DNA from: Desulfosudis oleivorans
GTDB taxonomy: Bacteria; Desulfobacterota; Desulfobacteria; Desulfobacterales; SURF-7
Assembly: GCA_020723305.1 (NCBI GenBank)
Contig: DYJC01000005.1
Span: 1-64,000 of the forward strand
Length of the DNA: 64,000 nt
Reading direction: 5' to 3'
Shown: piece after piece, positions 31,179 to 51,215 of the stretch
Layout of the letters: every line of letters starts with the position of its first letter
How positions within the stretch are numbered: position 1 is the stretch's first letter
The notes under the pieces: model-generated
Database searches by the model: none
Told to the model about the DNA's origin: nothing
What the model saw: the letters and a program-made list of their open reading frames with translations, nothing else
Position numbers and translations under genes: made by a program

Positions 31179-33116
31179 TTAACGTTTTTGTCTTGCCTCC
31201 AGCCGTTTCTTGAGTTTTGGGAAATGCTCCATATCTGTGTGGGGCAAAAACAGCGCCGCAATATAATGATCCATAAAGGAATGAGTTTCCGACAACTCAA
31301 AATTTGTCATCATCTGGGTAACCTGACCGACATCCCGCCGGATTCGGTTGGTCAGGGAGCTCATTTTTGCACCCATCAGGGATCCATTCCCTACAAAGGT
31401 AACCTTATCCGTATCAATTTCAGGCAGCAGCCCGATAACAATCGCTTTTTCAAGATCGATATAACTTCCGAAACCACCAGCCAGTATGATTCGATCCAGA
31501 TCATAAATGCTCAACCCCACCTCTTCCAGCAGGGTTTGACAGCCACTGAAAATCGCTCCCTTGGCGCGGATCAGGTTTTCTATATCAATCTCCGTCAGTA
31601 CCACATCCCGATCGATCTGGGACTCATGTTGCCAAGCCAATACATATTCCCATACATTCTGGATTTCCCGTATCCGCGGGGTTTTCAGATCCCGGTTGAA
31701 TTTTCCAAGATTGTTGATGATTCCCATCTCAAACATGGTCGCAACCATAATAATGAGACCGGAACCGCAAATCCCCTTGGGCCGGACATTCCCGATGGTA
31801 ATATTCATCGGTTCAAGGGTTATTGGATCAATGGAAAAATCTTCGATAGCCCCTTTTGTTGCCCGCATTCCCATTTTAATTCCACCGCCCTCAAAGGCAG
31901 GGCCTGCTGAACAGGCTGCACAGGCAAGCCAATCTTTGTTCCCGACAACAATTTCGGCATTGGTTCCGATGTCGATATACAATGTGAGCTCCTCGGTTCG
32001 ATATATGCCCGAACCCATAACACCAGCCACAATATCACCGCCCACATAGCTGGATATCTGAGGGTAAACAAGCGCAACCACATGGTCACCCAGATTCATC
32101 CCGATATCCTTTGCACGAATCGGCGGATAAATCGTTGCAGCCGGAACATAGGGAGCACGACGAATATATCTGGGATTTACCTGCAACATGAGCTGGGTCA
32201 TGGTTGTGTTTCCGGCCAGCGTAATCGTTGATATCTCATCCGGATCGATCCCGGCTATTTTGACGATCTTTTCAATCACATTATTGATGGTATGAACAAC
32301 CGCATCATGCAGGATTTCCATCCCGCCTTCCTTTTCCGCAAACATAATTCTGGAAATCACATCTTCGCCATAACTGATCTGCCCGTTAAAATCACCATAT
32401 TCACTCAGCACTTCTCCGGTCACCAGATCCAAAATCTGCCCATACACGGTTGTGGTTCCAATATCCATTGCAATGGCGTAATTCTGGGAACTCGTATCCC
32501 CCGCTTGGATATTGATAATACGGGTCTTGCTGCCTTCCCGAACCGGACGTTCCAGGGTTGCGGTAACCCGGAAATTATCTTTCCGCAGGATATCGGGAAT
32601 CTTACGAATAACCGGCAGGGTAAGCTGTAGTCTCTCTTCACCATAATTGAGCTTTAAAAAGCTTACCAGCCGGGTAACATCCGGAAGATGATCCTGGGCG
32701 GTCGGCTCCGGCAACTCCAAGTACCTTTTTTCAACCGGTGGCAAAAACAGACCTTTTTCCTTTAAATCATTAAAATCCATCTGTTTAATTTTGGCTTTCC
32801 GGCGCGGGGCACTTTGCTGATTCAATACACCGGCATCAACAACGGATTCAACGGGAATCCGGACTACCAGATTGCTTCTCACCTTTGCCTGACAAGCGAG
32901 CCGATACCCCTTTTCAATATCACCATCATCCAGCAGGGAGGATATACCGTCTTCAACAGCGCCATCTTCAATTATGACCCGGCATTTCCCGCAAACCCCC
33001 TCACCGCCGCAGGAAGCATTCACATGCACACCCGCTTCCATTGCAGCGCGGATCACTGTTATTCCATCTTCTGCCTGAATCTCTTTATTATGGGGCAAAA
33101 ATTTGATCGTGAACAT
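31179..33116 (-). CDS. acsV: Reductive activator of the corrinoid/iron-sulfur protein (ASKHA ATPase with [2Fe-2S] domain)
   Basis: Uses ATP to re-reduce the inactive Co(II) form of the corrinoid protein to Co(I). 645 residues. The N-terminal plant-type ferredoxin domain has cluster cysteines C36, C42, C45 and C75 (SCGGEGVCGKC...LACQ), and a large ASKHA-fold domain begins near 215 (AMDIGTTTVYGQ) with further phosphate-binding loops (DIGTNAEIVVG, AGGFGSYID). It lies upstream of acsD on the same strand, separated by 356 bases, so probably under its own control. A 124-bp repeat element with an outward promoter sits 36 bases in front of its start. Confidence 0.93.
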   Translation of the reverse strand: MFTIKFLPHNKEIQAEDGITVIRAAMEAGVHVNASCGGEGVCGKCRVIIEDGAVEDGISSLLDDGDIEKGYRLACQAKVRSNLVVRIPVESVVDAGVLNQQSAPRRKAKIKQMDFNDLKEKGLFLPPVEKRYLELPEPTAQDHLPDVTRLVSFLKLNYGEERLQLTLPVIRKIPDILRKDNFRVTATLERPVREGSKTRIINIQAGDTSSQNYAIAMDIGTTTVYGQILDLVTGEVLSEYGDFNGQISYGEDVISRIMFAEKEGGMEILHDAVVHTINNVIEKIVKIAGIDPDEISTITLAGNTTMTQLMLQVNPRYIRRAPYVPAATIYPPIRAKDIGMNLGDHVVALVYPQISSYVGGDIVAGVMGSGIYRTEELTLYIDIGTNAEIVVGNKDWLACAACSAGPAFEGGGIKMGMRATKGAIEDFSIDPITLEPMNITIGNVRPKGICGSGLIIMVATMFEMGIINNLGKFNRDLKTPRIREIQNVWEYVLAWQHESQIDRDVVLTEIDIENLIRAKGAIFSGCQTLLEEVGLSIYDLDRIILAGGFGSYIDLEKAIVIGLLPEIDTDKVTFVGNGSLMGAKMSSLTNRIRRDVGQVTQMMTNFELSETHSFMDHYIAALFLPHTDMEHFPKLKKRLEARQKR

Positions 33117-48990: not shown

Positions 48991-49878
48991 TTAAAACAAA
49001 CCTTCGGCAGAGATCAGTTCCGCTAGAAAACTACCCACGATCACCTCACTGCTTGCTCTTACCGGTATCCGTCTTGTATCGGCACTAACCCATAATTGGA
49101 TTTTCGGATTCCTGCTTTTTTTAAATACCCCTCCGATATGCTTTGTTTCCGGTTCGATTAAGAAGGTATCATATTGTTTCCCGGCCACCATGATGTTTTC
49201 CCGGCTCACAACTTTCATTCGACCCAGAACATTTTTTTTACCATCGGTTACCGGTCTTTCATGAACTGTATTTTCCCAAATGGGTGTGATACGTGAAAAA
49301 AAGAAAACAGATACCAGATCAAAGGTTCCCGGAAGTATGGTGATCGGCATTCTTTTTTCGCCATTTTCCGTCCGCTGGACCAAGGATTTTTCCCAGTTAA
49401 AATGATACGTGATCAGCTTATTGTGGCGTCCGGAGATTCGATTTTTTAAAAACACGGAATGGGTCAGCGCTTGATCTGTAAACGCGTCGATTCGTGTATG
49501 CACAGGGTAAACACGATCAATAGCGCCCTCTGTCTTGCCACTCAAGACAAAGTGATATGCGGGTTGATCATTGATTTGCGCAAAGGGTAGAACTTCCAAA
49601 GTTGCATGTCCGATCAAAATATTTCCCCAGGTAATTTTGAAAATAAACTTTTCCCCCGGCTGGAAAGGCGGTTTTGTTTCTTCCGCAGCACCATACCCTG
49701 CGAAGAGAAATCCAAATAAAAAACCGGATATGAGAGCCAATTTTAAAAGTCTCTTGTTGTAGTTCCGGCGAAAACTAAAATCCAGTATTTTCGGCTCTTT
49801 TCTGAGCACTGACTTTCGCCGGTGTGACGCTTTATAATCGTTTTGAAATTGGCTCATGAGATATTTTGCCAGGCGCAT
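48991..49878 (-). CDS. DUF3108-domain exported protein with inserted repeat element in its signal region
   Basis: 295 residues from ATG 49878, which has AGGAA in front; another in-frame ATG at 49899 lacks one. The mature part (from about KPPFQPGEKF) is a DUF3108 domain, a periplasmic beta-rich fold of unknown function (KITWGNILIGHATLEV, TDGKKNVLGRMKVV, KIQLWVSADTRRIPVR). Residues 8-49 are encoded by a 124-bp repeat element also found at 33153. Deleting 126 bases between flanking CTCA repeats restores in frame MRLAKYL joined to ISGFLFGFLF, a normal signal peptide. The present protein should therefore have a long basic n-region ahead of its hydrophobic core. It follows the MTA deaminase gene by 17 bases. 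Confidence 0.82.
   Translation of the reverse strand: MRLAKYLMSQFQNDYKASHRRKSVLRKEPKILDFSFRRNYNKRLLKLALISGFLFGFLFAGYGAAEETKPPFQPGEKFIFKITWGNILIGHATLEVLPFAQINDQPAYHFVLSGKTEGAIDRVYPVHTRIDAFTDQALTHSVFLKNRISGRHNKLITYHFNWEKSLVQRTENGEKRMPITILPGTFDLVSVFFFSRITPIWENTVHERPVTDGKKNVLGRMKVVSRENIMVAGKQYDTFLIEPETKHIGGVFKKSRNPKIQLWVSADTRRIPVRASSEVIVGSFLAELISAEGLF
49733..49856. mobile_element. 124-bp MITE-like element, copy 2 (inside the DUF3108 gene)
   Basis: Same length as copy 1 and about 91 percent identical by direct comparison (11 differences, no gaps). Inverted ends TGAGCCAATTTCAAAA and TTTTAAAATTGGCTCT on the minus strand. CTCA lies at both junctions 126 bases apart, consistent with a short target duplication. 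Its internal CTGACT/TATAAT promoter (49809-49838) points along the plus strand, antisense to the adjacent minus-strand genes. Confidence 0.85.
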
Positions 49879-49895
49879 TTTTTTCCTGAATATGA

Positions 49896-51215
49896 TCATT
49901 TTTTGATTAACCGGCCAACTTCCGCAACCCTTTCAAACAGCTTCTCGAGATCGATGGTCAATAGCCTGCCATCTTTTACCAGAACCTTTCCGTTGACCAT
50001 CACATCACGAACATCCGACCCTTTTGCAGCATACACAATGTGGGAGATTGGATGATACATGGGAACCAGATGCGGTTTCTGCATATCGATGACAATCAAA
50101 TCCGCCTGCTTCCCCTCTTCAAGGGACCCGACAACCTTGCCCAAACCGATTGCATCTGCTCCATGGGCGGTTGCCATGTTCAAAACCGTCTCCGCATCCA
50201 GTATGGTCGGATCCATGCGGCTCACCTTGTGGAGCTTTGCAGCAACATCCATCTCTTCAAACAGATCCAAATTATTATTACTGGCAGAGCCATCTGTCCC
50301 AAGACCGACGGTCACACCTTGTTCGATCAGTTCCGGGATCGGTGCGATACCGGATGCCAGCTTCATATTGCTTTCCGGATTATGTACGACACTAACCCCC
50401 CTGTCTGCAATCCGTTTCCGATCCTCTTCATCCATCCAGACTGCATGAACAAGCAGGGTTCCCGGACGCAATACATTGATGATATCCAGATATGCCACCG
50501 GAGAAACACCATTCTCCTTCACGATCTGATCATATTCCGACTTTGTTTCCGCCACATGAATCTGAAAAAGTACTCCTCTGTAGGCAGCCTCGTTACGGGA
50601 TCGGATAAGTGTTTCTCTGGAACAAGTATAAGGGGAATGACAAAAAATGGAAGGGGTGATCAGGGAATTCCGGCCTGCCCACTTTTCAACAAATGATATG
50701 GCAGCGGCAATATTTTTCGATGGGTCCGAAACTCCGGGAGCCGGGTAATCAATGACCCCCTGTCCTGCAATTGCTCGGATGCCGGTCTCAAATATTGCCT
50801 CCGCCACCGAGTCTTCATAAAAATATCCATCGCAGCAGGTGGTTGTGCCGCTCAGAAGAAGCTCCGCACAGGAGAGAAGTGCGCCGATTCTTACGGTTTC
50901 CGGTGTAATATGGATTGCCTCTGCCGGAAAGATGTAATCATTCAGCCAGGTCATTAAATGAATATCATCGGCCAATCCCCTGAAAAGAGACATGGGCAGA
51001 TGGGTGTGGGCATTGACCAGGCCCGGCATCACAACACAACCCGTAGCATCGATCGTCTCTTTTGCTGTCCAGGAGTTCATGGCTTCCATGGTTCCGATAT
51101 CAGCAATCCTACCCTGTTTTATGACAACACAACCTTTGTCCAGGATATCCCCAACTGCATTGCAGGTTACCACCACTCCGCTCTCTATCTTGATGTCAGC
51201 ATCCATATTCTGCAT
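49896..51215 (-). CDS. mtaD: 5-methylthioadenosine/S-adenosylhomocysteine deaminase-like amidohydrolase
   Basis: 439-residue metal-dependent hydrolase. Metal and catalytic sites are visible: VNAHTHLPMSLFRGL, a His in IHVAETKSE, LVHAVWMDEED, and GLGTDGSASNNNLDLFEEM. MtaD enzymes deaminate 5'-methylthioadenosine and S-adenosylhomocysteine to inosyl compounds; relatives (TrzA/AtzA) act on triazines. The adjoining purine nucleoside phosphorylase, whose 3' end overlaps this start by 20 bases, supports a purine/methylthio salvage role. Confidence 0.88.
   Translation of the reverse strand: MQNMDADIKIESGVVVTCNAVGDILDKGCVVIKQGRIADIGTMEAMNSWTAKETIDATGCVVMPGLVNAHTHLPMSLFRGLADDIHLMTWLNDYIFPAEAIHITPETVRIGALLSCAELLLSGTTTCCDGYFYEDSVAEAIFETGIRAIAGQGVIDYPAPGVSDPSKNIAAAISFVEKWAGRNSLITPSIFCHSPYTCSRETLIRSRNEAAYRGVLFQIHVAETKSEYDQIVKENGVSPVAYLDIINVLRPGTLLVHAVWMDEEDRKRIADRGVSVVHNPESNMKLASGIAPIPELIEQGVTVGLGTDGSASNNNLDLFEEMDVAAKLHKVSRMDPTILDAETVLNMATAHGADAIGLGKVVGSLEEGKQADLIVIDMQKPHLVPMYHPISHIVYAAKGSDVRDVMVNGKVLVKDGRLLTIDLEKLFERVAEVGRLIKK

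Follow-up and report, generated by a model that had tools for sequence, protein, structure and literature searches.

Repeats that become protein-coding sequence are already known in principle, from Rickettsia palindromic elements (RPEs) and from enterobacterial RU-2 repeats. In the passages of PMC10969869, PMC5896051, PMC2759123 and PMC3733652 that treat them, RPEs lie in frame in unrelated protein genes (Ogata et al. 2000, 2002), and nearly half of their copies are reported within open reading frames (ORFs). The relevant portion of Delihas 2007 (PMC2759123) places RU-2 repeats in coding genes, one of them in a predicted signal peptide. QMITE1 and QMITE2 of Coxiella are MITEs that, in the section of PMC5896051 describing them, are sometimes found in frame inside ORFs or at their ends. 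CGTC-type REPs are said, in excerpts of PMC3733652, to be without a transposase, and RPE-6 and RPE-4 of R. conorii are equated there with CGTC-1 and CGTC-4 repeats.

The element we describe here can be compared with each of these systems. Like the RPEs portrayed in those passages, it is a small palindromic repeat that occurs in frame in unrelated genes, a likeness of description; unlike them, it belongs to a Desulfobacterium-like genus, lies mostly outside predicted genes, has well-defined TIRs flanked by 4 duplicated bases, is absent from documented empty sites and has hit the same genes repeatedly. According to the excerpt of PMC2759123, the RU-2 repeat of YPO1552 starts its protein, whereas ours follows the native start of a DUF3108 protein and precedes its native hydrophobic core; at this site a relative is empty, and a second, independent insertion is probable. 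QMITE1 and QMITE2, compared through the partial description in PMC5896051, differ in size and have duplications of 2-3 or 7-11 nt. The body of our element resembles, by eye, two inverted CGTC-type units and may be a captured REP pair, but this pair, in contrast to the CGTC-tagged REPs outlined in PMC3733652, lies between TIRs that are themselves flanked by a 4-bp duplication. New are the element family, the repeated hits on the same genes and the CGTC-REP-like body within inverted ends. In the open literature, outside which most subscription papers fall, neither this family nor a pair of independent bacterial MITE insertions at one coding nucleotide turned up.

The window, meaning the whole 64,000-nucleotide stretch analyzed, belongs to a sulfate-reducing bacterium whose genome of 5.40 Mb in 47 contigs (G000, the host) we compared with two congeners (G002 and G003) and a further relative (G001). 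DUF3108 relatives were sought in 40 genomes including the host and are encoded in 23. Sequence comparison makes it very probable, in our judgment, that a high-copy, non-autonomous MITE entered the DUF3108 gene in frame, among the codons for the signal peptide, and duplicated 4 bp of the target. The repeat family, its TIRs and target-site duplications (TSDs), the empty sites, the open frame and the recurrence in other genes are established at the level of the DNA itself.

The DUF3108 gene and its insert

The DUF3108 gene (48,991..49,899, minus strand) encodes 302 residues including the insert and matches Pfam PF11306 (E 2.8e-28), the domain starting at residue 87, beyond the insert. The element core spans 122 bp, GAGCC...GGCTC (49,734..49,855, minus strand), and is bounded by 15-nt TIRs that are 93% complementary: GAGCCAATTTCAAAA at the 5' end in gene direction (49,841..49,855, minus strand) and TTTTAAAATTGGCTC at the 3' end (49,734..49,748, minus strand). 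On either side lies a copy of the target-site duplication TCAT (5' copy, 49,856..49,859; 3' copy, 49,730..49,733; both minus strand). Core and duplication together make 126 bp, or 42 codons, so that the N-terminal part of the product reads MIIFRKKMRLAKYL, then the in-frame insert MSQFQNDYKASHRRKSVLRKEPKILDFSFRRNYNKRLLKLAL, then ISGFLFGFLFAGYGAAEE. A second copy in the window, labeled L167 (33,154..33,275, plus strand), occupies the gap before the gene at 31,179-33,116 (minus strand).

An earlier, sequence-only reading of this DNA had recognized an inverted-repeat mobile element within the first codons, and it is indeed a high-copy repeat with TIRs and TSD. That reading was also right that the frame is unbroken, by 126 bp here and by 147 bp in G002. 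Its period of 126 bp holds, but the length of 124 bp that it gave has to be shortened to a 122-bp core; the bases it saw repeated at the junctions are real, but they are TCAT rather than CTCA, ambiguous border bases having been counted in.

Empty sites in relatives, which that reading had proposed to look for, are present. In G003, MTFFRKKPYQAKH is joined to LIFVFLFGFLFA with one TGAT and no insert, and the protein reads CATCTGATATTTG at this site (86% identity over a 229-aa query) and MTFFRKKPYQAKHLIFVFLFGFLFAQFGAAEE over its N-terminal part; G001 lacks the insert too. The element is present in 2 of the 23 DUF3108 loci, those of G000 and G002. The same residues encoded without the repeat, named beforehand as evidence against an insertion, were not seen: none of the 23 loci has the extra residues unless the repeat is there too. 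G002 carries a 143-bp element at the same nucleotide and in the same orientation as the host, in frame and with the duplication TGAT.

Where the protein begins bears on what the insert does. The TGA stop of an amidohydrolase-type gene upstream (49,896..51,215, minus strand) overlaps the DUF3108 ATG in an ATGA whose letters are identical in G000, G002 and G003, which suggests coupled translation from the native start. The resulting N-terminus is MIIFRKK in G000 and G002 and MTFFRKK in G003, and it is a better start than the MRLAKYL first assigned, which is not conserved, G002 having Thr there. This native ATG, with its coupling to the gene upstream, would most likely remain the point at which translation begins. 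By hydropathy, the hydrophobic core and cleavage region comprise LKLALISGFLFGFLFAGYGAAE (49,681..49,746, minus strand), the first residues of which derive from the element. The initial proposal that the insert lengthens the n-region by 42 residues is thus correct as to the added codons but not as to the n-region alone, because the last element codons, RLLKLAL, contribute to the hydrophobic core. The best 12-residue hydropathy reaches 2.36 when the insert is present, 2.27 when the flanks are joined and 2.96 in G003, and the net charge of the up to 15 residues before the best stretch is +4 in both filled forms, +5 with the flanks joined and +4 in G003; given these figures, the element end could serve as an n-region. 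We propose that the basic residues FRRNYNKRLLKLAL at the end of the insert would take over as n-region, immediately ahead of the original hydrophobic core, and that export would be kept because they act in this way.

Alternatively, translation might start at an ATG, GTG or TTG in or past the element, which would then mainly be a new 5' leader. The AT of the 5' TCAT and the first G of the element do create an additional in-frame ATG at the junction in the host (MSQFQN...), G002 has an in-frame ATG of its own (MSRKEL...), and both starts keep the basic stretch before the hydrophobic core. We nevertheless hold a downstream start to be the minor possibility: the ATGA overlap is retained in all three congeners, no clear ribosome-binding site was seen by eye ahead of the junction ATG, and neither insertion has a stop in this frame, though just 5 of the 24 143-bp copies read in G002 are open there.

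The element at this site folds more stably than shuffled sequences, both as DNA (131 nt, z -4.3) and as RNA (122 nt, z -4.2), with 0 of 200 shuffles equaling it in either case, and the strength of this hairpin could reduce DUF3108 translation. An Rfam scan of positions 49,650-49,950 returned a single match, at E 0.37 and 22.8 bits against a threshold of 81. No relatives of the DUF3108 protein with solved structures were found up to E 1, and a structure model built from 4 sequences was discarded for its mean pLDDT of 43.

Copies, targets and body of the element family

Individual copies in G000 and G002 carry L-numbers as labels. A similarity search of the host yielded 254 candidates, of which 40 were scored; all 40, including the window copy, share 96-100% identity over 118-124 bases. 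A 25-mer from the element has 135 matches in the host when up to 3 mismatches are allowed, and its reversed control 0. Pattern matches number at least 135 in G000 and at least 93 in G002, and 173 copies were read with their flanks (103 in G000, 61 in G002 and 9 in G003). The 98 host copies with both flanks have the core GAGCC...GGCTC, which measures 122 bp in 79 and 143 bp in 11, and an exact 4-bp duplication in 69. Across the copies read, the TSD is exact in 70/103, 51/61 and 8/9, respectively (129/173 overall). These 129 copies reveal a weak, roughly symmetric target preference: a C precedes the duplicated bases, a G follows them, and A/T is favored at a distance of four bases in both directions.

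The family is thus a short one (122 or 143 bp) with 15-bp TIRs and a 4-bp TSD, and its members are too small to encode a transposase of their own. The 2.06 Mb of G000 surveyed contain 80 full-length copies, or about 39 per Mb, and the host probably holds some 200. Mobility is evident from empty sites in relatives, among them that of L131, empty in G002; the pair L186/L027, at 78% identity, is a weaker case. Among the host copies read, 53 of the 79 with 122 bp and 2 of the 11 with 143 bp have no stop in the frame that DUF3108 uses, next to the 5 of 24 in G002. Among these last, both in-gene copies are open against 3 of the 22 others, a weak difference (Fisher test, p 0.036).

By eye, the body of many copies looks like two inverted CGTC-type units, each with a CGTC tag, a GC-rich imperfect stem and a CCAG tail. 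A loose motif for such units has 78 matches in G000 within full-length copies and 13 outside them; several of the latter are truncated copies, and the others are units or pairs lacking TIRs. CGTC-type REP units or pairs without TIRs stand at C1:7357-7427, C45:103556-103583 and C1:250958-250985 of the host. In G009, from another genus of the family, two sequences (C167:5997-6071 and C148:10-83) match only the element body (positions 28-103) and are perhaps REP units.

No transposase bearing these ends came out of our searches for an autonomous partner, which returned the following. TIRs with unusual inner bases occur at 14 places, 10 of them paired with another TIR 120-228 bp away. Four are single TIR ends (L241, L242, L244 and L250); three were read inward, with no transposase recognizable by eye. 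L242, L244 and L250 begin GAGCCAATTTCAAAACGT... and have no partner within the stretch read. The only PF01609 (DDE_Tnp_1) gene in G000 has nearby just ten-base TIR matches with 2 mismatches, in a number that we estimate to be about that expected by chance. In 2.06 of the 5.40 Mb, 163 loose TIR pairs lie 0.3-4 kb apart, none with equal 4-bp flanks, and the first 28 bases of the element have no exact match in viral contigs. Two 142-bp elements in the host (C41:269097-269238 and C1:102421-102562) have an unrelated body behind nearly the same ends (one mismatch each), and one of them has an exact TSD, GAAT. L244 and L250, identical in their first 27 bases, begin like the body of these 142-bp elements. 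As different bodies stand behind the same ends, one transposase shared by several MITEs would fit.

Insertion events at the DUF3108 site

The DUF3108 copies of the two species belong to different versions of the element. The host copy differs from the 122-bp consensus at 1 of 122 positions; the G002 copy differs from its own 143-bp consensus, that of a subfamily comprising 18 of the 61 G002 copies read, at 4 of 143. All 34 diagnostic columns place each copy with the consensus of its own lineage. The duplications also differ, TCAT in G000 and TGAT in G002, and the empty site of G003 has TGAT. Since a relative thus has a different element version at the same spot, with a 143-bp subfamily and TGAT instead of 122 bp and TCAT, the insertion is real and probably reflects two independent events; the G002 copy is best read as the second. 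The repeat interior in G002 could be a mis-assembly, given the 510 contigs of this fragmented genome. We dropped the idea that the stop codon typical of the G002 subfamily was lost once the element had inserted; four G002 copies have the open form GGTTTAAAAG, so the G002 copy probably arrived open.

How surprising such a coincidence is depends on the target model. A preference matrix fitted to the same insertions predicts about 1.2 exact coincidences for 210 G000 and 160 G002 copies (figures taken from the G000 census density and from 164 first-look candidates in G002, respectively) and about 0.5 for 150 and 100 copies; uniform intergenic targets predict 0.01-0.03. Comparison of the 103 G000 and 61 G002 copies found two common sites, DUF3108 and that of L138 (G000) and L174 (G002). 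L138 and L174 have the same imperfect flanks and bodies that are near-identical except for a precise 21-bp hairpin, so this site looks ancestral. The hairpin difference suggests a route by which 143-bp and 122-bp forms could be interconverted. L163 and L205, 26 bp apart, are two separate insertions, each empty in the other species.

A single insertion in the ancestor of G000 and G002, followed by gene conversion from another copy in one lineage, would account for the identical nucleotide, orientation and frame in both species, and L138/L174 provide another shared site whose elements differ by the 21-bp hairpin. We nonetheless judge this history unlikely for DUF3108. Conversion within the element leaves the flanks unchanged, and two identical G-to-C changes would therefore be required to turn TGAT/TGAT, the form matching the empty site, into TCAT/TCAT, besides an exchange of the entire element; moreover, the 34 diagnostic columns, all fitting one subfamily per species, contain no mosaic, and L138/L174, with their common imperfect flanks and near-identical bodies, are unlike the DUF3108 pair.

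An outcome in which the insertion is harmful, the hairpin or the oversized n-region blocking expression or export while the gene is being lost, is considerably less probable, even though the hairpin near the start is strong and the host copy, to judge by its consensus, is young. Against it stand the intact frame in two species, the retained hydrophobic core with its preceding basic stretch, and a low dN/dS between the two. For the mature part of the protein, G000 and G002 differ by dN 0.022 and dS 0.198 (dN/dS 0.11), which indicates purifying selection between them; because the host insertion is very young, this ratio says little on the period after insertion. That the 42 residues are native coding sequence, their similarity to the repeat being accidental or having spread from DUF3108, is refuted by the G003 empty site, the 21 of 23 loci without the element and the roughly 39 full-length copies per Mb elsewhere, mostly outside predicted genes.

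Element copies in other genes

In-frame insertions were found in several unrelated genes: besides DUF3108, those for a lipoprotein, a TolB-like protein, YfiH (twice) and a receptor tail. In the host, a lipobox-like signal peptide is split between MKILKIINPVFLFL and ISILFFLTSC by L132 (TSD TTAT); the G002 orthologue, MKTSKKINPVFLFIISIHFLLTSC, is empty. In G002, L218 lies in the signal peptide of a PD40-repeat (TolB-like) protein, between MKH and PSVFQKLILLL, with an imperfect duplication (ATCT/ATCC) and empty sites in G000 and G003. The YfiH/PgeF gene (PF02578, TIGR00726) holds an element after ...GSDII in G000 (TSD TGCT) and another 49 nt further on and in another frame in G002 (TSD CGGT); each species is empty where the other is filled, pointing to independent hits. 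A solved relative of YfiH aligns over residues 31-93 and 151-302 but not over the part in between, consistent with a variable loop there. The receptor-tail copy of G000 lies 15 codons before the end of a gene that reads by eye as a chemotaxis receptor.

The MlaA gene of the host is a probable further in-frame capture. It has a 143-bp copy (L116, C45:175769-175911) in frame 0 ahead of the signal peptide; where the 143-bp consensus has TAG, this copy has TTG, and the ATG apparently used in G002 is ATA in the host, suggesting that the start now lies within or before the element. The four firm N-terminal cases (three genes, a non-systematic set) are all in signal peptides, in one orientation and one frame. 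L005, L125, L198, L102, L184 and L022/L037, which looked fused to long ORFs, were left out of the captures, since the gene is doubtful or could plausibly start past the element.

A census shows how common such copies are. It covered stretches of six contigs (2.06 Mb, 38% of G000), with genes predicted in 2.5-kb flanks by a home-made hexamer caller (predicted coding fraction 0.80); borders are imperfect in some copies, and the two TIR-bounded 142-bp elements escaped the similarity search. Among 105 regions, 80 are full-length copies, of which 56 have an exact duplication and 56 a core-plus-4 length divisible by 3. A predicted gene runs across the rejoined flanks of 10 of the 80, against about 80% predicted coding sequence. 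Seven of these lie at most 22 codons from the 3' end, one open and six with a stop; as that stop lies in the element, the six appear to supply the stop codon of the gene. The remaining three are YfiH and DUF3108, both open, and C45:184487, which lies 7 codons past a predicted start and has an in-frame stop, although a later start is possible. YfiH is the one gene in the census with a copy far from its ends. Three more copies are ambiguous at 5' ends, one open and two with stops. With 7 of the 10 gene-spanning copies carrying a stop in the gene's frame, openness is not general, and the intragenic share is not large as it is reported to be for RPEs.

We propose that a transposase acting in trans would insert the element at AT-rich targets resembling C[NNNN]G, and that selection would remove most landings in genes. 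The survivors would be those in which 122+4 or 143+4 bp is divisible by 3, the frame is free of stops and the protein region tolerates added length, such as a signal-peptide start, a loop or a C-terminal tail. It counts against this account that in-gene copies are a small minority. A more far-reaching interpretation is that the family is adapted to life inside proteins, as a portable N-terminal module repeatedly acquired by exported proteins. Both main lengths, with the duplication, are frame-neutral (126 and 147 bp), and the commonest open frame in the host ends in the basic stretch FRRNYNKRLLKLAL, which would serve as a ready-made n-region; this stretch, presumably twin-arginine-like, might even shift Sec/Tat routing. 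We find this interpretation unlikely.

With this element, a mobile repeat that has turned into coding sequence is documented outside Rickettsia, and close relatives supply the empty sites. It also suggests how such an insertion can be survived: the length is neutral, the frame is open and the protein tolerates additions at that place. The repeated hits, at the same nucleotide in DUF3108 and 49 nt apart in YfiH, amount to a natural insertion scan of signal-peptide and loop tolerance, and enclosure in an element with TIRs suggests one vehicle by which CGTC-type REPs may move.
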